Shown here one piece after another: positions 3,335-16,822 of a stretch of 64,000 nt of DNA. Numbering within the stretch: position 1 is the first letter of the stretch; every line of letters begins with the position of its first letter. Location of the stretch: contig NZ_AP022616.1 of assembly GCF_010731115.1 (NCBI RefSeq), positions 4,712,001 to 4,776,000 of the forward strand. Direction: 5' to 3'. The position numbers and the translations under genes were made by a program. Under the pieces are notes generated by a model, which worked only from the letters and a program-made list of their open reading frames with translations, was not told the DNA's origin and did not search any database. The DNA is from Mycolicibacterium phocaicum. Lineage in GTDB: Bacteria; Actinomycetota; Actinomycetes; Mycobacteriales; Mycobacteriaceae.

Positions 3335-3895
3335 ATGAGTGCCCGGGATCGGCTCGTCGTCACAGCCATCGATCTGATTCGGCGCCAGGGCGTCGCAGCG
3401 ACGGGGCTCAGCCAGTTACTCGAACGCAGTGGTGCCGCGCGCCGTTCGCTCTACCTGAATTTCCCGGGCGGCAAGGCGGAACTCGTCGCCGATGCGACCG
3501 TGACGGCCGGCAACACGCTGGCCGAGGGCATCGACCAACTGATCGGGGAACGAGGCCCGGTCGGGGCGGTCCGGGCCTTCATCGAGATGTGGATTGCGAA
3601 CCTGGCCAGCGGTGACTTCGAGGTGGGCTGCCCGATCGTGGCTGCGGCACTCGGCCGCAGCGAGGCGCCGGCGGCCGCCGACGCCGCCGGTGAGGTCTTC
3701 CTGGACTGGGAGCGTCGAATCGCCGCCGGGCTCGAAACCGCGGGGTTGTCAGCCGATGACGCCGCTCGCCAGGCGACGCTGACGGTCGCCGCGGTGGAGG
3801 GTGCCATCGTCATGGCGCAGGCAACCAAGTCGGACGTGCCGCTACGCCGTGTCGAGGCGGCGCTTGTCGAGTCGGTGGAGCAGCACCTGAATTAG
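3335..3895 (+). CDS. TetR repressor, LmrA/YxaF-like
   Basis: A 186-residue TetR-family DNA-binding regulator. The N-terminal helix-turn-helix (about residues 5-50, with GVAATGLSQLLERSGAARR) is followed by SLYLNFPGGKAELV; the FPGGK motif marks the LmrA/YxaF subgroup, whose members repress multidrug exporters. The rest is an all-helical ligand-binding domain. ATG at 3335 is preceded by GGGAG. It is divergent from mmpL and probably represses both genes through the inverted repeats at 3250-3301. Its 3' end overlaps the convergent esterase gene by 4 bp. The inducing ligand cannot be inferred. Confidence 0.9.
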   Translation: MSARDRLVVTAIDLIRRQGVAATGLSQLLERSGAARRSLYLNFPGGKAELVADATVTAGNTLAEGIDQLIGERGPVGAVRAFIEMWIANLASGDFEVGCPIVAAALGRSEAPAAADAAGEVFLDWERRIAAGLETAGLSADDAARQATLTVAAVEGAIVMAQATKSDVPLRRVEAALVESVEQHLN

Positions 3896-4881
3896 GCGGA
3901 CTTTGCCGGGGCCGTGCCCGCCAGGCAGTCGGCGATGAAACCGGCCATGCGCGCGTAGGCCCGGCGGCTCTCGGGCAGTCCGGGGAATATGGCCGGGAAC
4001 GCGTGGACCTGACTGGGCCAGGCCGCGACCTCGCACTTGCGTCCGGCCTCGTGCAGTTTGTCCTGCATCCGCTCGGCGTCGCACAACAGTGACTCCGTCT
4101 CGGAGGCGACGATCAGCGACGGCGGCATCGAATCCATCGGACCGGAAACCGGCTCCAATTCGTCGAGATTGCCGGCGGGACAGATGCGTTCGGTTATGAC
4201 CGGGAAGCCGGCGGCGATCCCGAAGACGTCCGTCGCCGCGGTCGAATGCGCAGTGCGTGCGGCGTTGTCCAATTCCAGCAGAGGTGAAATGCCGACCACC
4301 CCTGCGGGACTCGGGAGCCCGTGCTTCGGCGCCTGCTGCGCGGTCGCGAACGCCAGGAATCCGCCGGCCGAGTCACCGGCGAGGATGACCTTGGCCGGAT
4401 CGACGCCCAGACTCAGCAGGTGGCGGTAAGCGCTCAGGCAGTCCTGGATGGTCGTCTCCAGGTCGACCTCGGGGTACTGCCGATATTCGATGTGTACCAA
4501 CGGCAATCGCGTGACGCGCGAGAGCGCCGCGACGGCGCGCAGGTGGGTGTTCAGATCGCCGAGGACGAACCCGCCGCCGTGGAAATACAGGATGACCCCG
4601 TCGGTGATGGGCGCGTCGAGGTCTGACGGCGACACCCATTCGACCGGCAGGCCGTTCCAGTTTTCGGCGACCAGTCGGAAGCCGCGCGGTGGCCGACGAC
4701 GCTGCAGGCTGGCCAACTTGTTGACATTGCGTCCCACCCGCACGATCCGCTGTGACGTCGCCTCGTACTCCGCCGTGGTCAGCGCGCGAATCAGAATGCG
4801 GGCCAACAGCAATGACGCGAAGAAGTGAATGATGCGCGCGCGCAGGCTGGCCGGCTCGGCGGCGTGACTGACCGCGCTCAC
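3892..4881 (-). CDS. Alpha/beta hydrolase (HSL-type Lip esterase)
   Basis: A 329-residue serine esterase of the hormone-sensitive-lipase group, related to the mycobacterial Lip family. The oxyanion-hole motif HGGG is at 101-104 and the nucleophile elbow GDSAGG at 169-174 (Ser171); the catalytic His is probably H293 (SQVHAFP). The first ~35 residues are helical and hydrophobic but not a clear signal peptide. The GTG start at 4881 overlaps the xthA stop (GTGA), so it is the last gene of the jetABC-xthA operon. The position resembles that of Rv0426c in M. tuberculosis, but the product type appears different. The acyl substrate is unknown. Confidence 0.88.
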   Translation of the reverse strand: MSAVSHAAEPASLRARIIHFFASLLLARILIRALTTAEYEATSQRIVRVGRNVNKLASLQRRRPPRGFRLVAENWNGLPVEWVSPSDLDAPITDGVILYFHGGGFVLGDLNTHLRAVAALSRVTRLPLVHIEYRQYPEVDLETTIQDCLSAYRHLLSLGVDPAKVILAGDSAGGFLAFATAQQAPKHGLPSPAGVVGISPLLELDNAARTAHSTAATDVFGIAAGFPVITERICPAGNLDELEPVSGPMDSMPPSLIVASETESLLCDAERMQDKLHEAGRKCEVAAWPSQVHAFPAIFPGLPESRRAYARMAGFIADCLAGTAPAKSA

Positions 4882-5663
4882 GGCGCCAACTCCACCAGCA
4901 CCGGCGCGTGATCGCTGGGCTGCTTGCCTTTTCGCTCCTCGCGGACGATCTCGCCGTGCGTGACGCGTGCCGCGAATTCCGGCGAGCCCAGCACGAAGTC
5001 GATGCGCATGCCCTGCTTCTTGGGGAACCGCAGCTGGGTGTAATCCCAGTAGGTGTAGACGCCCGGACCCGGGGTGAACGGGCGGACCACGTCCGCGAAG
5101 CCGGCGTCGTTGATGGCGCGGAACGCCGCGCGCTCCGGCTCGGAGACGTGCGTCGAGTTCGCGAACACCGCCATGTCCCAGACGTCCTCATCGGTCGGCG
5201 CGATGTTCCAGTCGCCCATGAGAGCCAACGGCAGCGACGGGTCGTCGGCCAGCCAGCCGGTCGCGGTGTCCCGCAGCGCGGCAAGCCATTTCAGCTTGTA
5301 GGGCAAGTGGGGATCAACCAGCGTCCGGCCGTTGGGCACATACAGGCTCCACAACCGGACCCCGCCGCAGGTGGCACCGATGGCACGCGCCTCGTCGGCG
5401 TCCTGCCACTGCGGTTGGCCGTCGAAACCGATCTGCACGTCCTCGATTCCGACCCGGGACGCGATGGCCACGCCGTTCCACTGGCTGTGGCCGACGTGCG
5501 CGACTTCATAACCGAGCGCCGCGAACGGCATCGTCGGGAACTGCTCGTCCTTGCACTTGGTCTCCTGCATCGCGAGCACGTCCACGTCCGCGCGGGACAG
5601 CCAGTCCGTGACCCGGTCGACCCGGGTGCGGATGGAGTTGACGTTCCAGGTGGCGATACGCAT
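4878..5663 (-). CDS. xthA: Exodeoxyribonuclease III / AP endonuclease
   Basis: DNA-repair nuclease of the ExoIII/XthA family, which incises abasic sites and trims 3' ends. At 261 residues it has the usual length. Visible active-site motifs are WNVNSIR (6-12), QETK with metal-binding Glu34, GDWNIAPTDEDV in the middle, and PSDHAP at the end (Asp251-His252). It corresponds to Rv0427c. Only 10 bp separate it from the upstream jetC stop, and its stop overlaps the esterase start, so it is probably co-transcribed with the condensin genes. Its conservation at this locus suggests it is the housekeeping enzyme and not a dedicated defence nuclease. Confidence 0.95.
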   Translation of the reverse strand: MRIATWNVNSIRTRVDRVTDWLSRADVDVLAMQETKCKDEQFPTMPFAALGYEVAHVGHSQWNGVAIASRVGIEDVQIGFDGQPQWQDADEARAIGATCGGVRLWSLYVPNGRTLVDPHLPYKLKWLAALRDTATGWLADDPSLPLALMGDWNIAPTDEDVWDMAVFANSTHVSEPERAAFRAINDAGFADVVRPFTPGPGVYTYWDYTQLRFPKKQGMRIDFVLGSPEFAARVTHGEIVREERKGKQPSDHAPVLVELAP

Positions 5664-5673
5664 GACGCTCCGA

Positions 5674-8600
5674 TCAGACAGGCTCGGGGACTTTCAGTTC
5701 CCGACGTAGGGCGGTGAAGTCGGTGATGGTCTTGGTGGCGACGTTCGCGACCGGCCGGGCGTTGCGGCCAGTGGCCTCGGACTTGGACACCATCACCACG
5801 CCGTCGATGTACGGCTGAATGGTGGTGGCGTTCTGCACTGTCGCGACGATCACCAGCTGGAAGCCGAACTTGCGGAACGCCTGCAGCGCCTGCGAGGCGA
5901 ACTGCGGGTCGGACTTGGAGAACGCCTCGTCGAGCATCAGCTGCGCGAAAACCGGCTTGTTGTCGCCGCTTTCGGGGTTGGCCAGGTTGAAGCTGAGCGC
6001 CCCGGCCAGGCAGAAGGCCATCAGCTTCTCCTGCTCGCCACCGGAGTTGTCGCCGGCGTTGCTGTGTGTGCGGATCAGTTCGCCGCTGGCGACGTCCCAC
6101 TCGGCGCAGTCGAACGTGAACCGGTTCCGCACGTCGAGCGCATCGCGGGTCCAGGCACGGTCCTCGGGGTTGTTGCCCGCCAACCGGTTTCGCAACCGCA
6201 GGATGTCGGCGTACTGCTCGAGGATCGCCTTCTTGTCGCCCAGCCCCACCTCGGCGATGCGCCGGGAGATGGCCTTGACGATGTCGGTCAGCTCGGAGAC
6301 CGCCGCCATGCTGCGCGGGTTGGCGCGCAGCGTCAGCCGGGTGCCGCGGTTGAATTCCACCGCGCCCAGACCGGTGTTGACGCGGTCGATCTGCTCGCTG
6401 ATCCGCCGGGTCTCCTGCTCGGCGACGCGGTGCAGGGTGAGGATCGCGTCGGGCGCCTGCTCGGTGATCAGTCGCATCATGCGGTCGTAGGCGTCGGGCA
6501 ACTCGCGCTCGTCGATGTGACGGCAGACCGCCACGTAGTCGTATATGCGCTCGTCGAAATCGTCCGAGTCGTTCGGAATCGCATCCGGGAAAGACGCGTC
6601 GAACGTCGCGACGATGCGCGACAGCTCCTCGTAGGAGCGCCGGCGGCTCTCGGTGAGCTGGTCGCGTTCGCGGCGGATGGCCGCGAACAGCGCCTCGCGG
6701 TGCGGCTCGGGGTTGAGCAGTTCCAGCGGCACCGGGACGTCAGCGGCGTAGCGGCGCAACAGATCTGTGGCCTGCTCCGACACCGTAACGGGGGAGAGCC
6801 GGTCCTGCAGATCCATCAGCTTGGTCCGGCGGGCGTCGAGATCGTCGCGTCGCGTCTGGATCGCGCCGCGCCGGGTCATCAGGGTCTGGATGTCGACCCA
6901 GCACTCCTCGGCGCGCGCCGACAGTGCCTCGATGTCGGGATGGTCGGCCAGCAGCAGCTCGTACTGCTCGCGCAGCCGATCGGCATGGCCCTCGGCGGTG
7001 TCGGTGTCGATCTGGCTCCACTGCGGGAACTGCTCGTAGACGGCCTTGCATGCCGCGGCCCGGTCGCGCCAGCGTTGCCGTTGCGCCGCAATCTCATCCG
7101 CGGCGCGGCGGGCGGTGTTGAAGGCCTCCTCGGCCTCGGTGAGTTCGGCGTGCAGCGCCTCCAGTTTGGCGCCGATGTCACCCTGGTAGATGTACTCGGA
7201 CGGCTTGATCGGACGCCGGTCGTCCTTGATGGCCAGCCGGTCGGAGTCCTTGTACAACCCCGTGTCGGTGACGGCGCGGCGGAAGCGCACGAACACGTCG
7301 GGGGTGTCCACACAGATGTGGTCACCGGCCGCGGCGATCACATCGGCGGCCTCGGCGGCGCAGGGATGCTTCGGTTTGACCAGGAACAGCTTGCCCGCCA
7401 ACGTGTTCGGCTCGGCCTCGCGTCCCGAGGCGCCGGCCCGCACGTGGTGCAGCGCCAGCCGTCCGCGCATGTTGGTCTCGTTGACGAACCGCAGCACCTT
7501 GGCGTAGTGCTGATCCGGCACCAGCAGCCGCAGACCCACCCCGCGCAGCACCTTCTCCACCGCGAGCCGCCAGCGGGAGTGCTCGGGCTGCAAGTCGAAA
7601 AGTTCGGCGACATAGGGCAGTTCGGCGGGGTCGATACCGACGCCCGCGCAGATGTGGTCCCGCATCGTCACAGCGGACTCGGGCAGCGCAGAGCCGACGT
7701 GCTCGACGCGCTTGAGTTCCTTGGCCGCGTTGTCGCGCAGGATCCGCGCCGACTTCTGTGCGTACTCCGCGTCGGTGGACGCATCGCGCCCCCACTCGAG
7801 CTTGCCCAGCATCTCGGTGGCCTGCCGGGTGAGCTCCTCGCGCAGGTTCCAGAATTCGTCGGCCGTATCGGGCACTTCGACGCCGAGAGCCGCGACCATC
7901 TCCTCGTAGGCCGCGCGCCGCCGGGCCACGTCGTCGGCCTGCGCTTCGGCGGCATTGACCTGGGCCTGCAGCGGGCCGACGTTCGCCGATGCGCCGTTGA
8001 TCTGGGCGTTGAGCGAATCACCTTCGGCCTTGGCCAGATTCAGCTGCCGCGTCAGGTCGGCGTTCTCGTTCTCCAGCTGGTCGATGGTCGCATCGAGCGT
8101 CTCGATCTCCGCGGGGCAGTGCCGGAGCCGCACATGATCGGTGTAGGCCCGCACCATCGGCAGGTCGACCAGGTCGATGATGCCGAGGTCGGTCGACTCG
8201 GAGGCGTAGCGCACCTGGATGGCCTCGATGTCACCGAGGATCTTGCGCTTGCGCTGAGCCACCGCGAGCAGTTCCCGGGCCTCGACGAGCGGATCGATCT
8301 GCTTGAGCGCCTCGGGCAGCCGGGCCAGGCTGTCCGGTTCATCCAGCATGAACTCGCGGACGAACTGCTCAAGCCCACCAACGCTTTTCAGGGACTTGGC
8401 CTTGCCGAGCAGCTGCTGTGCGGCGTCCGACGCGCGGATACCGATCGAGGCATACAGCTGCGCCAGGTACTGCGACTCGACCTTGGTCGTGAACCGCCAG
8501 CCGTCACCCTTGAACACGCCGGCATCGAACCGGCCCGCGGCCCACCGGTTGCAGACGTCCTCGATGTCCAGGTCGCCGTCGCCGATGACGAACCGGCTCG

Positions 8601-9015
8601 ACGAATCCGAACGCGATTCTCCGGTCAGCCATTTGAGCACCAGGCCCGTTATGGTGCGGCCGGTGTTGCTGGTGTAGGTCACCGCGACGGCGGACCAGGT
8701 GGTGCCTTCGCCGCGCAGGTACATCACCTGGCTGGTGCCGGCTTCGCTGCGCTGGCCCCAGGCGCCGCGGACGTACTTGTCGACGGTGCGTCGGCCCGCG
8801 CTCGAGCCGGCCGCGGTGTTGTCGCCGGACGCGTTGAAGTTGCGCCGGTTGAACGGCAGGAAGCCGAGCGAAATCGCATCCAGCAGTGACGATTTACCGC
8901 TGCCGGAGCCGCCCGCGACCAGTGAGCCGCCGGCGCTGAACGGGATGCTGTGATAACCGTCGAACACGCCCCAGTTGATGATCTGGAGCCGGGACAGGTG
9001 GAACTGCTCAGACAT
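5674..9015 (-). CDS. jetC: MksB/JetC condensin-like ATPase
   Basis: SMC-like ATPase of the MksB/JetC (MukB-type) family, the DNA-loop-extruding motor of MksBEF and Wadjet complexes. The 1113-residue protein has Walker A GGSGSGKS at 35-42, long coiled-coil arms (about 240-420 and 620-900) around a central hinge-like segment, the ABC signature SGGEQ at 991-995 and Walker B LMLDEAF with D1029-E1030. All ATPase motifs are intact. ATG at 9015 overlaps the jetB stop by 8 bp, so the genes are translationally coupled. JetC complexes compact DNA and, with JetD, cut small circular DNA; no JetD is encoded here. The EptC protein that restricts plasmids in M. smegmatis belongs to the same family. Confidence 0.92.
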
Positions 9016-9673
9016 CGGCTTCAGTACCTCCGCCGGTGAGTTGTTCGAACTGCTGCTGCAGCTCGGTGATCACCGAGGCCGTCATCACCGCCGTGATGAC
9101 GGGGCTCACGGTGTAGCTGTCCTCGTCGTCACGGCTACGGCGCAGGATGTCGAGACCGGTGAGGCGCGCGATGGCCCCGTCGATCCGGGCCGTGAACGTG
9201 ACTGCGTCACGGTCGGTTTCGTTCAGCACGCCGCTGAACATGCCGTGCATCTCGTCGCGGGTGATGAGGAAGCTCTGGTCACCGCCGGCGCGCATCAGCT
9301 GCGCCAGGTGCAGCGCCAGAATCGAGTCATAGGTGCCCAGAGGCTCGCGGCGCAACAGCTTGATGCCCTTGGCCGACTCGTAACGGGCCTGCTCGATGAA
9401 CGCGATGTCGACGCCCTCGGAGATGCGCAACTGCAGGTCGAGTTCGGACAACCGCACCGACAATTCGTTGCGGTACTCCAGGATCCAGCTGTAGATGTCG
9501 CGATCGGACTCGCTGCTGATGTAGCGGCGGGTCAGCAGGTGCTGCAATGCCCAGCAGGCCCGGTCCGGCATGGCGCTGACGTCGCCGTCGAAGCGTGGAC
9601 GCCGCTGCTGGACCGCGCGGCTGGTGCTGTCGACCTCGGGCAGCGAGGCGAAATCGATGGGTGAGTCAGTCAT
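9008..9673 (-). CDS. jetB: MksE/JetB accessory subunit (DUF4194)
   Basis: A 221-residue protein with the size, winged-helix-like composition and gene position of the DUF4194/MksE/JetB kleisin-associated subunit. In such complexes it binds the kleisin JetA and DNA. Recognisable family features are the segment around [15 protein letters not shown] and a C-terminal acidic-basic region ending in a Gln-rich helix. I chose ATG at 9673, giving MTDSPIDF, over an upstream extension; it overlaps the end of jetA by 8 bp, as jetC overlaps jetB. It lies between jetA and jetC in the usual type I Wadjet order. Confidence 0.86.
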
Positions 9674-11138
9674 GAAGGGCTCCCGCCACGGCAACAGGCT
9701 CGGTGAACATCAGATAGGGCACCTCGATCTCGCGGTCCCGGCCGTCGAGCGAGCGGAACCGCACCGACATGGTGTCGTCGCCCGCGTCACCCGGTCCTGC
9801 GGGTTGTTTGAGGGCCCACGACCACAACACGATGACGTGGCCCAGGTATGCCGAATCGAGCATCGAGACGGCCTCGGCCAGTGACACCGGCCGTCGCGCG
9901 ACCGCGGCGTTGAGCATCTCGGACATCGCGGGTGCGTCGACCTGGGTGGTCAGGGCCGCGAAGGTGGACAGGTCGACGTCGCCCTGCGCCGCTTCGGCGG
10001 GCTTGGGCGCCGACAGGTCGCCGATCTTGAAACTCAGCGCGCCGATCGAGCTGATCGCGTGCCGGGCCAGGGGGACCTCGATGTCCAGCCGGGAATCGGT
10101 GAGGGACGACTTCAGCAGCGTCCGGGCGGCGCCGATGGCCTCGTTGAGCTGACGGGCCACGCCTCGGCTGGACTCCATGGTGCCGAACGCGGTGAACCGC
10201 TTGACCCGCTGCGCGCAGCGCTGCTGGATGCGTTCGACCTCGTCGATCTGGTGGCCGATCAACTCGAAGAACCCGGCCATCACCTTGCGCAGCGCCGGGT
10301 CCAGCTCGGGGAGCGCCGACGCCACGGTGGCGATGTCGGTCTCGAATTCGGCGCGCTGGTCGGGGTCATTGATCATCCGCAGGAACGCCCGATGCGAATC
10401 GCGGCCCGCCGAATCCCATGCCGCCTGGTAGTCGGCGTACATCTGGCGCTGCCGGTCGCGGTACTCGATGTTGGTGTCGATCGGATCGTCCAGTGCCTGC
10501 GTGGCCTGCTCGATCATGGTGCCGTAGAGGCCGATGTCGGTGATCAGCCGTTCCATCTGCAGCGCGATGGCGCGGGCTTCGTCGTACATGTCGGTGACGT
10601 CGGGCTCGGGGCGCAGGCCGGCCTCCAGCTCGTCGAGCTCGCGGTGCAGCGCGGCGATCTCGGCTTCGATGCCGGCCCGGATGCGGTCGGGGTCATTGCC
10701 GGCACGGGTGGCGATCTGGCGCATGCGGGACGCGATGCCGGCGATCGAGCCGCCGGTGGCGATGCTGTCGCCGCGGCGCATGCCGCGCACGAAGTCGAGG
10801 GCGCGACGGGCGTCCTGCGTCAGATAGCAGACGTTGCGTTCCGCGCCGGCGCGCGTCTCGGTCACCCGGTGCACCCAGCCCTGGCTGGCCCAGGACTTGA
10901 TCAGGGCCAGGCCGGACTGTCCGAGCTGGTCGTCGGTCTCACCGAGCGTCGCCAGGTCGCGTTCCAGCCGGACCACCAGATCGGTCTCGGCGATCATGCC
11001 GTCACTGAGGTGCCGCTCCATCAATGTGGCGTAGACGCCGAGATTGTTGGTGGCCAGCAGCCGGACCGCGCGCGAGCCCTGAACGTCACGGTTGAGTTCG
11101 AGCAACTCGGCGGCCGACAGCGCCGCATTCTCTTGCAC
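9666..11138 (-). CDS. jetA: MksF/JetA kleisin-like subunit (DUF3375)
   Basis: A 490-residue DUF3375 protein, the kleisin-like MksF/JetA subunit that bridges the two ATPase heads of the JetC dimer. It starts with ALSAAELLELNRDVQGSRAV, typical of the family N terminus, followed by a helical region (about 160-330) and a C-terminal winged-helix-like part. The open frame extends upstream to 11465, but the GTG at 11138 with AGGGG six bases before it fits the family start, and the extra N-terminal sequence has Pro/Arg/Cys-rich non-coding character. It is the first gene of the jetA-jetB-jetC-xthA-esterase operon; a promoter should lie in 11139-11500, but none is obvious. Confidence 0.88.
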   Translation of the reverse strand: MQENAALSAAELLELNRDVQGSRAVRLLATNNLGVYATLMERHLSDGMIAETDLVVRLERDLATLGETDDQLGQSGLALIKSWASQGWVHRVTETRAGAERNVCYLTQDARRALDFVRGMRRGDSIATGGSIAGIASRMRQIATRAGNDPDRIRAGIEAEIAALHRELDELEAGLRPEPDVTDMYDEARAIALQMERLITDIGLYGTMIEQATQALDDPIDTNIEYRDRQRQMYADYQAAWDSAGRDSHRAFLRMINDPDQRAEFETDIATVASALPELDPALRKVMAGFFELIGHQIDEVERIQQRCAQRVKRFTAFGTMESSRGVARQLNEAIGAARTLLKSSLTDSRLDIEVPLARHAISSIGALSFKIGDLSAPKPAEAAQGDVDLSTFAALTTQVDAPAMSEMLNAAVARRPVSLAEAVSMLDSAYLGHVIVLWSWALKQPAGPGDAGDDTMSVRFRSLDGRDREIEVPYLMFTEPVAVAGALHD

Positions 11139-11792: not shown

Positions 11793-13421
11793 ATGAATGT
11801 TGCGGTTCGTCGCCATACCAAGGCGGGTATCTGCGCAGCGACCACGGCGGCCATCGTGGTCAGCCCGCTGTTGCCGTCAGTGCCCGCCGCCGCGCATCTG
11901 CCGTCGCTGCCGTCGGTCAGCACCGCCGCGGTGCAGCTGACTGCGGCGTACAACCCGCTGCAGCCGTGGCTCGACGCGTTCAACACCGCATCGGCCAACG
12001 CGGGGCGCATCGGCGAGGCCTTCTCCGAGGCGCCGGCCGTGTTGTTGCAGCAGTTCCTGGCGAACCAGATCAGCCATGTCGGGGCCATCCTGCAGAATCC
12101 CGGCAACATCGGCGCGGTGATCCAGGACGTCGGGCAGAACGTGAAGTCGGCGATCACCGCTGCCACGCTGCTGGGGACCAAGCCAGAGGACTGGACCATC
12201 GCGGGCTCGAACGACGTGTGGCACGGCCTGGTCGCGCAGATGCTCCCCAACATGCTCCCGACGGCGGGCAACCCGCAGGCGTCCGCGATCGTCACGCAGG
12301 TGGTCAACGTGTTGGCATCGCCGCTCAGCGGTGTGCTGATGGGTTTGGTGGGTCCCGGCATCAGCCCCGTGGTGGCGCTCGTCAACAGCATCACCAAGAT
12401 CGCGACCTCGCTCGCCGCGGGTGACGCGATGACCGCGGCCCAAGCCGCCATCAACATCCCCGCGGCCATGGTGAACGGCTTCCTCAACGGAGCCAACCTG
12501 AACCTGGATGTGCTGGCGCCGCTGATCACCAAGACCATGCCGGCCGGCAACGAGCTGCAGAAGCTGAACATCCAGTTCGGTGGGTTGTTCACCGCCGGTG
12601 TGACGGGCATGGACATGACCGGCATCGGTGGCTCGATCCTGAACTCCCTGGGCCTCACGGCCGAAACGGTGCTCGCCCCGGGATTCCCGTTGGAGATCAC
12701 CGGCCAGGGCATCGGGCCGATCGGTGCGCTCGTGAACCTCAGCCACCTGCTGGCCAAGGCCATCGGTTGGAGCGGTACCGGTAATCCGTTGGCCCCCAAG
12801 GCTGCTGCCGAACCGGCTGCCGCCACCCAGGTGTCGGTGACCAAGGCGAGCACGGACAACTCGATCACCTCGATCCCGCAGCCTGCGTTGGCCGTGACGC
12901 CGGTGAAGGCCACGGCGGCACAGGCCCCGGCCGAGAAGCCTGCCGCGCCGGCCAAGGCGGAGACGCCGGCGACCCCGGCCACTCCGGCCACGCCAGCGAC
13001 CCCGGCGACCCCCGCCACCCCGGCGACCCCGGCAACTTCGGAGACGCCCGCGACCCCGGCTACGCCCGCGACCCCGGCTACGCCCGCGACCCCGGCTACG
13101 CCCGCGACCCCGGCTACGCCCGCGACCCCGGCTACGCCCGCGACCCCGGCCACCCCGGCGACGCCTGCCACTCCGGCGAAGTCCGACAACCAGAAGTCGG
13201 ATGACCAGAAGTCGGACTCGACCAAGTCGGACACGAAGTCGGACACCACCAAGTCCGAGACCAAGAAGTCCGAGTCGAAGAAGCTGAGCAAGCAGAAGTC
13301 GGAGAAGTCGAAGCCTGTGAAGAAGCCGGCGCCGGCGAAATCTGCTGCTGGCCAAGGGGGTTCGGCCAACGGCGCTGACGGTGGTGCCGGCTCGCACGCT
13401 TCGGCCGCCGCGAGCAAGTAG
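11793..13421 (+). CDS. GjpA-like outer-membrane porin family protein 1
   Basis: A 542-residue secreted protein of the group often annotated in mycobacteria as outer-membrane porin GjpA. It has a signal peptide (about 1-32, RRHTKAGICAATTAAIVVSP), then a hydrophobic domain of about 330 residues including AYNPLQPWLDAF, ILQNPGNIG and FGGLFTAG. The tail has two low-complexity parts: about 25 TPA triplets (roughly residues 390-463), then a Lys/Ser/Asp/Thr-rich segment ending in APAKSAAGQ. CGAGGAG precedes the ATG. The neighbour at 13562 is a tandem duplicate. Channel activity is known only for a distant Gordonia relative, so porin function is inferred. Confidence 0.8.
   Translation: MNVAVRRHTKAGICAATTAAIVVSPLLPSVPAAAHLPSLPSVSTAAVQLTAAYNPLQPWLDAFNTASANAGRIGEAFSEAPAVLLQQFLANQISHVGAILQNPGNIGAVIQDVGQNVKSAITAATLLGTKPEDWTIAGSNDVWHGLVAQMLPNMLPTAGNPQASAIVTQVVNVLASPLSGVLMGLVGPGISPVVALVNSITKIATSLAAGDAMTAAQAAINIPAAMVNGFLNGANLNLDVLAPLITKTMPAGNELQKLNIQFGGLFTAGVTGMDMTGIGGSILNSLGLTAETVLAPGFPLEITGQGIGPIGALVNLSHLLAKAIGWSGTGNPLAPKAAAEPAAATQVSVTKASTDNSITSIPQPALAVTPVKATAAQAPAEKPAAPAKAETPATPATPATPATPATPATPATPATSETPATPATPATPATPATPATPATPATPATPATPATPATPATPATPAKSDNQKSDDQKSDSTKSDTKSDTTKSETKKSESKKLSKQKSEKSKPVKKPAPAKSAAGQGGSANGADGGAGSHASAAASK
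13051..13140 (+). repeat. 18-bp unit repeated five times without error
   Basis: CGACCCCGGCTACGCCCG is repeated in five perfect head-to-tail copies (13051-13068, 13069-13086, 13087-13104, 13105-13122, 13123-13140), each encoding two Ala/Thr/Pro triplets. Degenerate copies flank it on both sides. Perfect identity at the DNA level inside a degenerate amino-acid repeat points to recent expansion, as in a VNTR. Confidence 0.9.
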
Positions 13422-13561: not shown

Positions 13562-15139
13562 ATGGATTCAGCGGTCCGTCGCCATACCAAGGCGGGTATC
13601 TGCGCAGCGACCACGGCGGCCATCGTGGCCGGCCCACTGCTCACGTCGGCACCCGCCTCCGTCAAGCTTCCGGCGCTGCCGTCGGTCAGCACTGCCGCTG
13701 TGCAGCTGACTGCGGCGTACAACCCGCTGCAGCCGTGGCAGGACGCGTTCAAGACCGCTGCGGCGAATGCCGGGCGCATCGGCGAGGCCTTCTCCGAGGC
13801 GCCGGCGGTGTTGTTGCAGCAGTTCCTGGCGAATCAGATCGACCACGTCGGGGCCATCCTGCAGAATCCCGGCAACATCGGCACGGTCTTGGGCGAGATC
13901 GGGCACAACGTGCAGTCGGCGATCACGGCCGCGACGTTGCTGGGCACTGACCCCGGCAACAACTCGCAGTCCGTCGACTCGAACGATGGTTTCCACTTCA
14001 TTCTGCTTCAGGTGATTCCGAAGCTGCTTCCGACGGCCTCGAACGCCATGGCCAACCGGGTCGTGCAGGAAGTGTTCAACTTCCTGGCATCGCCGCTGAG
14101 CGGGGTCCTGATCGGCCTGGCAGGACCGGCGATCAGCCCGGCGGTGGCGCTGGCGAACAGTCTCACCAGCATCGGTGCGTCCCTGTCGCAAGGCGACGCG
14201 GCGAAAGCGCTGCAGACCGCCATCAACATCCCGGCCGCCATGGTGAACGGCGTCCTCAACGGCGCCAACCTCAACCTGGACCTCGTGGCCAAGCTGATCA
14301 ACAAGACCATCCCCCTCAGCGACAATGCCGTCGTCAAGGCGCTCAACATCCAGTTCGGCGGACTGTTCACCGCCGGATCGACGGGCTGGGACCAGATGGG
14401 CCTCGGTGGCTCGATCCTGAACTCACTCGGGCAGACCGTCTATGCCGACATCATCGGGACGGACCTGCAGATCGACGGTCTGGGCATCGGGCCCATCGGC
14501 GCCATGGTGTCGCTCGGCCGCATCCTCGCCAAGGCCATCGGCTGGAGCGGCACGGGTAATCCGCTGGCGCCCAAGACCGCCGCCGATCCGGCTGCCGCCA
14601 CGCAGGTGTCGGTGACCAAGGCGGCGACGGACAACTCGATCACCTCGATCCCGCAGTCCACGTTGGCGGTGACGCAGGTGAAGGCGACCGCAGCGGAGGC
14701 TCCGGAGGCGCCCGCGAAGCCTGCTGCTCCGGCCAAGGCGGAGACCCCGGCGACCCCGGCCACGCCCGCAACTCCGGCGACCCCGGCAACTCCGGCCACC
14801 CCCGCCACCTCGGAGACGCCGGCTACCCCGGCCACGCCGGCGACCCCGGCGACGCCCGCCACCCCGGCGACCCCGACGAAGGCCGACAACCAGAAGTCGG
14901 ATGACACCAAGCCGGATACCACCAAGTCGGAGACGAAGACGTCCGAGACCAAGTCCGACACAACGAAGTCCGAGACCACCAAGTCGGAGACCAAGAAGTC
15001 CGAGTCGAAGAAGCCGGGCAAGCAGAAGTCGGAGAAGGCCGATAAGGCCGAGAAGCCGAAGCCCGCGAAGAAGTCGGCGCCGGCGAAATCGACTGCAGCT
15101 CAGGGTGGTTCGGCCCCCAGTGGGGCCGACGCGCACTAG
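13562..15139 (+). CDS. GjpA-like outer-membrane porin family protein 2
   Basis: A 525-residue tandem paralogue of the preceding gene. The signal peptide and first ~120 residues are nearly identical in both protein and DNA (for example RRHTKAGICAATTAAIV and QPWQDAFKTAAANAGRIGEAF), whereas the middle is more diverged and lacks some sequence of copy 1. The tail has a shorter TPA tract (about 395-440) and a longer Lys/Ser/Thr/Asp/Glu-rich segment ending PAKSTAAQGG. ATG at 13562 is preceded by AGAGGAG; the frame is open farther upstream, but the signal peptide fixes this start. Exported to the cell envelope by inference; function as for copy 1. Confidence 0.8.
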   Translation: MDSAVRRHTKAGICAATTAAIVAGPLLTSAPASVKLPALPSVSTAAVQLTAAYNPLQPWQDAFKTAAANAGRIGEAFSEAPAVLLQQFLANQIDHVGAILQNPGNIGTVLGEIGHNVQSAITAATLLGTDPGNNSQSVDSNDGFHFILLQVIPKLLPTASNAMANRVVQEVFNFLASPLSGVLIGLAGPAISPAVALANSLTSIGASLSQGDAAKALQTAINIPAAMVNGVLNGANLNLDLVAKLINKTIPLSDNAVVKALNIQFGGLFTAGSTGWDQMGLGGSILNSLGQTVYADIIGTDLQIDGLGIGPIGAMVSLGRILAKAIGWSGTGNPLAPKTAADPAAATQVSVTKAATDNSITSIPQSTLAVTQVKATAAEAPEAPAKPAAPAKAETPATPATPATPATPATPATPATSETPATPATPATPATPATPATPTKADNQKSDDTKPDTTKSETKTSETKSDTTKSETTKSETKKSESKKPGKQKSEKADKAEKPKPAKKSAPAKSTAAQGGSAPSGADAH

Positions 15140-15207: not shown

Positions 15208-16068
15208 TTACAGGAGCACGTACCGCGACCGGTGATGCAGCCGGAAACCCATCGACTCGGCCAGCGCGATCGCCGTCGCGTTGTCGTCGGGAACCCGGAC
15301 GTATGCGTGCGTCGCACCACGGCCGGCGGCCCAGGCCAGCAGTTCGGCGCAGACGGCCCGGCCGAGTCCGCGGCGACGTTCCGACTCGAGCACCGCGACG
15401 TCCGACAGGCCGGCCCACACCCTGCCGCCGGGCGCCGTGGTCACCGCGACCCGGCCGACCGCCGCGTCGGCCACCGTGGCGAACGCCACGTCTCCGTCGA
15501 CGACGGCGCTGAGCACATCGACGGGCACGTCCTGCGCGTGAATCTGCAACCACCGGGCATCCGGACGCGAGGGCAATTCGGCATCGGCGGCGCCCGACAG
15601 TTCCATGGTCAGCACGCGATTCGGGTCGACGCCTTCGGAACGGACCGGCAGCAGCCGTTCCGGCAGTGCCACCCACGGTTGCAGTCCGCGTTCGGCGTAC
15701 CAGTCGGCAATCGCCGGCAGCGTCGTCAGGTCCGACGAAAAGAGCAGCGGCACAGCCGAGTTGGTGCGCGTGTCCGTCCCGCCGGCGCGCAGCAGCCAGC
15801 CGTCGGCCCAGTGCTGTTCGGTACCCGGCCAGGCCAGGGCGGCGGCGTGCTCGACCGCACGTATCTCTGAATTGCGCACCGGTGCGTGCGACAGCTCGCG
15901 CACCGACATCACCGCGGCAGGGCTGATCTCGACGCGCTCACCCGACTTGGTGCGCACCACCACGACCGGGGTGAGCGCCTCGAGGTGCCCGACGACGTCG
16001 GTGAAAGCCTCTGCGTCAGACTCGGGCAACCGGTAGCGCAGCGAGACGCGGCTACCGACCGAAGGCAT
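15208..16068 (-). CDS. GNAT-family N-acetyltransferase
   Basis: A 286-residue acetyltransferase corresponding to Rv0428c. The N-terminal ~120 residues form a separate domain; the C-terminal half is a GNAT fold, with the acetyl-CoA loop RRGLGRAVC and the closing segment NATAIALAESMGFRLHHRSRY. I chose ATG at 16068, giving [15 protein letters not shown]; it shares one base with the def stop (TGATG), so it is translationally coupled to def. The acyl acceptor is unknown; N-terminal or small-molecule amines are possible. Confidence 0.86.
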   Translation of the reverse strand: MPSVGSRVSLRYRLPESDAEAFTDVVGHLEALTPVVVVRTKSGERVEISPAAVMSVRELSHAPVRNSEIRAVEHAAALAWPGTEQHWADGWLLRAGGTDTRTNSAVPLLFSSDLTTLPAIADWYAERGLQPWVALPERLLPVRSEGVDPNRVLTMELSGAADAELPSRPDARWLQIHAQDVPVDVLSAVVDGDVAFATVADAAVGRVAVTTAPGGRVWAGLSDVAVLESERRRGLGRAVCAELLAWAAGRGATHAYVRVPDDNATAIALAESMGFRLHHRSRYVLL

Positions 16069-16661
16069 CAGTGCCCGAACGGGTCGTCGACCTCGCCCGG
16101 CATCCAGCTCAGCCCCGGCACGCCCCACTTGTTCGACTTGACCATCCGCTTTGCGGCCCGGGCGTTGCGGCCGATCAGGCAGTCGAGGTACAGGAAGCCG
16201 TCGAGGTGACCGGTCTCGTGCTGCAGCATCCGGGCGAACAGGCCGGTGCCCTCAAGCTCGACCGGCTTGCCGTCGGCGTCCAGACCGGTGACCTTGGCCC
16301 ACGTGGCGCGGCCGGTCGGGAACGACTCGCCGGGAACCGACAGACAGCCCTCGTCGTCGTAATCCGGATCGGGCATGGTCTCGGGGATCTCCGACGTCTC
16401 CAGCACCGGGTTGATCACCACGCCGCGGCGCCGCGCGGTCTGGCCGCGGTCGTCGGCGCAGTCGTAGACGAACAGCCGCAGCCCGACGCCGATCTGATTG
16501 GCGGCCAGGCCCACGCCGTTGGCCTTGTCCATCGTTTCGTACATGTCGTCGATCAGCTCGGCGAGATCGGAAGGGAGGGAGCCGTCGGCGCCGACGGCCA
16601 CCGGAGTGGTCGCGGTGTGCAGAACAGGGTCACCGACGATGCAGATTGGACGGACAGCCAT
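16068..16661 (-). CDS. def: Peptide deformylase
   Basis: Metalloenzyme that removes the formyl group from the initiator methionine of new proteins. The 197-residue length and sequence match actinobacterial Def (Rv0429c). Motif 1 [10 protein letters not shown] is at 49-58, motif 2 EGCLS at 104-108 with metal ligand Cys106, and motif 3 QHETGH at 147-152 with ligands His148 and His152 and catalytic Glu149. ATG at 16661 ([12 protein letters not shown]) matches the family start better than the upstream extension. It forms a two-gene unit with the GNAT gene and is divergent from the DUF3263 gene. Confidence 0.96.
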
Positions 16662-16822
16662 GACGAGCAATCTTAATGATCCGACTCGCGGGTAACGATC
16701 ACGGCTCAATACCGTCGGCCGTGGTTGAATGTTCGCCGAACCACTTGCAGCGTCCGAGATCCGTTGTGACGCACGAAACAGGCTGGCATATACCGAGATC
16801 AGAGAAAGGGTCCAGGGGCGAA

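Follow-up and report, generated by a model that had tools for sequence, protein, structure and literature searches.

The window, a 64,000-nucleotide (nt) stretch of the Mycolicibacterium phocaicum chromosome (contig NZ_AP022616.1, positions 4,712,001 to 4,776,000), carries a set of three genes, jetA, jetB and jetC, which probably encodes a nuclease-free, loop-extruding condensin of the MksBEF type derived from the Wadjet system. The MksBEF-type label follows gene content, and the sequence comparison was made with solved JetABC chains. The three genes are listed below, with positions counted from the first letter of the window.

9666..11138, minus strand: jetA (mksF), DUF3375, kleisin subunit; 490 amino acids (aa) from a GTG at 11138; PF11855, E-value (E) 8.8e-103
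9008..9673, minus strand: jetB (mksE), DUF4194, KITE subunit; 221 aa from an ATG at 9673; PF13835, E 2.2e-36
5674..9015, minus strand: jetC (mksB), ATPase resembling structural maintenance of chromosomes (SMC) proteins; 1113 aa; PF13555 and PF13558

The jetA start is that of the initial annotation of this DNA; a longer frame reaches 11465, and the PF11855 and PADLOC scores of JetA come from this longer frame. PADLOC called the motor proteins JetA1 (832 bits), JetB1 (374 bits) and JetC1 (2050 bits). JetC matched solved JetC chains (8as8, E 5e-61); by sequence, no solved relative was found for JetB and only weak ones for JetA (E 0.015-0.022). The overlaps of 8 nt at both jetA/jetB and jetB/jetC suggest that the three genes share one operon. 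As the initial annotation had stated, Walker A, the signature and Walker B of JetC are all intact and jetD is missing from the locus, where the gene next to jetC is xthA.

The same three motor subunits, the same gene order and the same PADLOC type-I models are found in Wadjet type I (JetABCD or MksBEFG, namely EptABCD of M. smegmatis and MksBEFG of C. glutamicum), but the window locus is without the JetD/MksG nuclease. With an intact SMC-like ATPase, kleisin and KITE partners and no dedicated nuclease subunit, it has the features of an MksBEF condensin. P. aeruginosa, whose MksBEF is among the closest known systems, belongs to a different phylum from mycobacteria; the mycobacterial changes were mapped in trees of JetD-bearing actinobacterial relatives.

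The source genome is a single contig of 5.85 Mb with three DUF3375 (JetA) loci and a canonical SMC at C1:1496496 (1.50 Mb). Two jetD genes lie elsewhere in it, at C1:2334840 and C1:1569633, and each is the last gene of its own complete jetABCD set (L006 near 2.34 Mb and L007 near 1.57 Mb); Wadjet type I was the best-scoring type for each of the eight proteins of these sets. With the window jetABC, the genome thus has three motors, two armed and one JetD-less.

JetD-less motors in the genus and the order

The distribution of JetC and JetD was determined in a sample of 198 genomes of the genus, using JetC relatives at E 1e-20 or better, and the rows were sorted by hand by their identity to window JetC. 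Scoring was limited to three first-look candidates per genome, so that the JetC copies per genome are lower bounds. JetC relatives were found in 112 of the 198 genomes. Lineage A, which holds the window jetABC, is present in 76 of them (JetC 77-100% identical, counting the partial G008 and the broken G031 and G159), lineage B in 11 (58-60%) and lineage C in 6 (55%), and the 17 genomes of lineages B and C are likewise without jetD at the locus. Lineage D occurs in 4 genomes (47-52%), and JetD adjoins JetC in all 4. A distant Wadjet JetC of 26-31% identity is present in 24 genomes. No JetD match at E 1e-5 was found in any of 80 named lineage-A loci, which are the best 80 of 200 confirmed relatives and thus biased towards the window; 9 of the 80 have less than 10 kb of DNA after jetC (L121 has none), where a few neighbours could be hidden.

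One option raised by the initial annotation was that JetD acts from elsewhere and completes the complex in trans. The two jetD genes of the source genome favor it, as does the retention in lineage-A proteins of most sites that are invariant in JetD-bearing relatives. However, JetD was present in only 31 of the 198 genomes, and 81 of the 93 genomes with lineage A, B or C had no JetD match; JetD was held by 12 of these 93 and by 19 of the 105 others, so that its presence was not associated with these lineages (Fisher p 0.33). Moreover, comparison of coordinates showed that 9 of the 12 have JetD next to a distant JetC, separate from the lineage A, B or C copy, and the remaining three consisted of partial JetD in G049 and G121 and JetD beside a 1344-aa SMC-like protein in G154. 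These results indicate that JetD, linked or elsewhere, is unnecessary, and make its action in trans extremely unlikely. The genome-wide search for jetD thus yielded two genes elsewhere in the source genome, as had been envisaged, and no co-varying presence across the genus. At locus L154 (5619-11000), a JetD-like protein directly follows a 1344-aa SMC-like protein and perhaps represents another Wadjet type.

In an order-wide sample of 397 genomes (JetC at E 1e-110 or better), lineage A was restricted to the genus of the window. JetC resembling that of lineage B (Bx in the trees) extended to one further genus of the family (G502 and G274); the JetD of G502 sits on another contig. Group F, with JetC 34-36% identical, belongs to two other genera of the family (G568, G486, G369 and G412; L190-L193), and no JetD match was found anywhere in these four genomes. 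In L190, a gene for an AlkZ-like DNA glycosylase directly follows jetC. In genome G494, a JetD-less set of lineage A (L197) occurs together with a JetD-bearing set of lineage D (L187).

Conservation and selection

Among 24 lineage-A rows, the signature and Walker B of JetC were kept in all and Walker A in 23, the exception being L107, and all three motifs were kept in the 9 B, 2 Bx and 5 C rows. Selection was estimated from 18 hand-chosen close pairs, 7 of which included XthA. JetC is under strong purifying selection: the ratio of nonsynonymous to synonymous divergence (dN/dS) was 0.013-0.081 for JetC, 0.010-0.086 for JetB and 0.031-0.174 for JetA, and 0.027-0.082 for XthA in its 7 pairs. In the same 7 pairs, synonymous divergence (dS) was 0.24-0.48 for jetC and 0.28-0.56 for xthA, and this similarity argues for shared vertical descent of the two genes there. 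The nuclease-free MksBEF complex, another option of the initial annotation, agrees well with these data, since JetD-less relatives are widespread in the genus and their conservation is maintained by purifying selection.

Probable repeated loss of JetD

JetC trees were built from 55 rows and then, more carefully, from 23 rows; three of the five fetched lineage-D loci were used. The JetD-bearing L138 was sister to all A, B, Bx, C and other D rows, and the JetD-bearing L139 and L187 grouped with lineage C, so that the three are nested among JetD-less lineages. JetD presence needs at least three changes in each of the JetC and JetA trees. A single JetD-less clade of A, B, Bx and C, corresponding to one ancient loss, was rejected for JetC (log-likelihood 115 lower, P = 9.5e-31 in the approximately unbiased (AU) test) and also for JetA (71 lower, p-AU 2.4e-125), the JetA tree being less resolved; the group used in the AU test was chosen with the quick tree already in view. 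Several lineage-D rows are long branches, according to a program warning, and the trees cannot separate gain from loss. The conserved jetABCD order would make loss the likelier direction. Lineages A, B and C, all without JetD, have many members on short branches, and D is sparse. The nested position of the JetD-bearing rows, together with the rejection of a single clade, suggests that JetD was probably lost repeatedly in this subfamily. The three motor proteins were compared for a common signature left by loss of the JetD-binding surface, and none was found (no column in JetA or JetB and one in JetC); 59 of 462 label choices equalled the JetC result.

The xthA neighborhood and the position of the locus

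The other genes around the motor genes are as follows.

4878..5663, minus strand: xthA, exonuclease III / apurinic-apyrimidinic (AP) endonuclease; PF03372; TIGR00633 at 265.2 bits against a curated cut-off of 99.05; Rv0427c ortholog by synteny
3892..4881, minus strand: esterase, alpha/beta hydrolase; PF07859, E 1.4e-39
3335..3895, plus strand: TetR-type regulator, PF21993; convergent with the esterase gene and outside the jet module
11793..13421, plus strand: repeat-rich protein without Pfam match; present in L044-L047
13445..15139, plus strand: second repeat-rich protein, resembling the first; no Pfam match for 13565-15139
15208..16128, minus strand: Rv0428c ortholog, the old upstream neighbor of xthA; PF24553 (Rv0428c_C), E 2.3e-80
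16068..16709, minus strand: def, peptide deformylase; 82% to the protein of a relative, a 120-aa piece of which matches PF01327

Profile matches and coordinates confirmed that jetA, jetB, jetC, xthA and the esterase gene stand in a row on the minus strand at the positions first assigned to them. They had been called fused, but the genes are separate and merely closely spaced: the gap between jetC and xthA is 10 nt and contains GGAG, and xthA shares 4 nt with the esterase gene. A scan for promoters and terminators gave no promoter-like site and five terminator-like sites, all on the plus strand, against 3.6 expected by chance.

xthA is a housekeeping gene, with an ortholog in 196 of the 198 genus genomes. 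Comparison of coordinates among the matches listed showed that it adjoins jetC in at least 8 genomes. At the named lineage-A loci it was near jetC in 14 of 80, overlapping or starting no more than 13 nt after it in 13 and lying about 0.9 kb off in L059, and the other 66 showed no xthA within the DNA available at each locus. The gene order that was to be compared across the genus is thus real in one clade and does not extend to most lineage-A loci. As the initial annotation noted, xthA of M. tuberculosis is not known to have such neighbors.

At all nine relatives that occupy this place outside the subgroup of the window (L049-L051 and L054-L059), the Rv0428c match ends no more than 30 nt before the jetA match. 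Of the six genomes read that lack jetABC here, five (L144, L147, L148, L149 and L159) have Rv0428c no more than 40 nt from xthA; in the sixth, L150, about 3 kb separates them. These two adjacencies show a clean insertion of jetABC into an old def-Rv0428c-xthA operon in one clade. Judging from gene order, xthA stayed in place while jetABC moved in, and the adjacency is derived, an accident of one lineage. The esterase gene directly follows xthA in L044-L047 and L116, an adjacency limited to the window's own subgroup. Both this gene and the two similar repeat-rich proteins, which have runs of PAT, are additions of that subgroup; in its members L044-L047 the repeat-rich proteins lie between jetA and Rv0428c.

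It had also been proposed that XthA does the cutting in place of JetD, and a related possibility is that jetABC and xthA form a functional DNA-repair operon. The tight spacing at 13 of the 80 named loci, in one orientation and in several species, would fit such coupling, and a minus-strand terminator-like site was not found at the jetC-xthA junction of the window. Nevertheless, xthA is shown at few of the lineage-A loci and is some distance away in L059, it is present throughout the genus irrespective of jetABC, and the def-Rv0428c-xthA order exists without jetABC. In addition, exonuclease III acts as a 3'-5' exonuclease and as an AP endonuclease and does not cut intact duplex DNA. We consider both forms of this proposal very unlikely. 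Two further distant exonuclease III-like proteins are encoded in the source genome (L012, 5906-6793, and L013, 5858-6934; 31% and 33%), and neither is the xthA ortholog.

When we compared locus positions, 57 of the 80 named loci fell into nine shared positions and 23 shared none. The nine shared positions need eight changes on the JetC tree, which is the minimum possible; locus position is stable within clades and changes between clades. Inspection by eye found 1-6 kb of other DNA in either the jetA-jetB or the jetB-jetC interval in L060, L064, L081, L089, L090 and L099, indicating that the three genes need not stay in a tight operon. Lineage B is convergent with a MaoC-like and then a fabG4-like gene in 13 of 14 loci, 11 directly and 2 with genes between (neighbors identified by a Pfam run on L128), and lineage C adjoins the same gene in six of six loci.

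An excerpt of PMC6135046 describes MSMEG_0370 as a MukB-like protein of M. smegmatis that is additional to EptC and SMC, and MSMEG_0372 is named fabG4 in an excerpt of PMC10699116. Since lineage B adjoins a fabG4-like gene, MSMEG_0370 probably belongs to lineage B, judged by these neighboring genes. Lineage B differs from the window in that its JetC is 58-60% identical to window JetC and lies at another genomic place.

Probable function of the nuclease-free motor

The motor is a complete Wadjet-type SMC complex, with JetC/MksB as ATPase, JetA/MksF as kleisin and JetB/MksE as KITE subunit, whose JetD was probably lost in an ancestor. It may load on chromosomal DNA and extrude loops in an ATP-dependent manner, as Wadjet and MukBEF do, and would then serve as an accessory condensin beside the canonical SMC without cutting DNA. 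Plasmid cleavage would be left to the two other jetABCD loci of the genome, and xthA would be co-transcribed solely through its position. In Wadjet, the dimeric JetABC motor extrudes the plasmid and then activates JetD, according to an excerpt of PMC12647877; without JetD, extrusion without cleavage is therefore expected. We read the locus as a probable chromosome organiser, not as a new defence system.

Several points weigh against a condensin role. In the part of PMC6135046 available, M. smegmatis without SMC, EptC and MSMEG_0370 is viable and its DNA is still condensed under stress, which suggests that a chromosome role may be small. Similarly, the part of PMC10123090 available reports no effect on chromosome organisation of C. 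glutamicum MksB, which has MksG. Lineage-A jetABC has moved repeatedly, and 122 of the 198 genus genomes gave no match to it; such changing position and patchy presence are more like those of an accessory or defence gene. Lineage A also keeps most of the sites that are invariant in JetD-bearing relatives, having lost 9 of 216 in JetC, 6 of 67 in JetA and 4 of 32 in JetB, so that no decay of a JetD-binding surface is seen in the motor. Finally, some lineage-A copies are damaged: JetC of G031, G045 and G159 contains stops, and that of L107, with a stop at residue 290 and an altered Walker A, looks broken. These four copies would suit a decaying, functionless Wadjet remnant, a reading that is hardly credible for the window locus given the dN/dS of 0.01-0.09 in JetC and JetB and the intact motifs of the window JetC.

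The main rival to a condensin is a motor that still serves immunity without JetD, fully extruding small circular DNA and silencing or sequestering it uncut. Silencing of circular DNA has been proposed for eukaryotic Smc5/6 (in an excerpt of PMC10586767), and the patchy presence and changing positions of lineage-A jetABC, as well as the sites largely retained from JetD-bearing relatives, agree with such a role. In contrast, the nine shared positions track the JetC tree with the fewest possible changes, the closeness of jetC and xthA dS indicates vertical descent in 7 pairs, and the neighbors of lineages B and C are stable. We regard the silencing role as unlikely, and prefer the MksBEF-type condensin.

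This kind of system is already known; the new part is the repeated loss of JetD within one family and the wide retention of the disarmed motor. A search of open-licence papers found no study of JetD loss in mycobacteria. We tentatively offer, as a possibility rather than an expectation, the wider proposal that Wadjet was made nuclease-free three times by parsimony (in A+B, in C and in F) in one actinobacterial family. Within the genus, 93 of 198 genomes keep the disarmed motor, far more than the 4 of 198 that keep its closest armed relatives. Under this proposal, the motor may silence small circular DNA without cutting it, which would be an SMC-based immunity that needs no nuclease, or it may be a condensin. 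A jetABC match scored as Wadjet type I by PADLOC is no evidence of plasmid defence unless JetD accompanies it. Because armed and disarmed motors coexist within a single bacterial family, and in G494 within a single genome, the function of a nuclease-less Wadjet motor is testable in tractable environmental mycobacteria. If the proposal is true, the motor alone would be worth keeping in either role.

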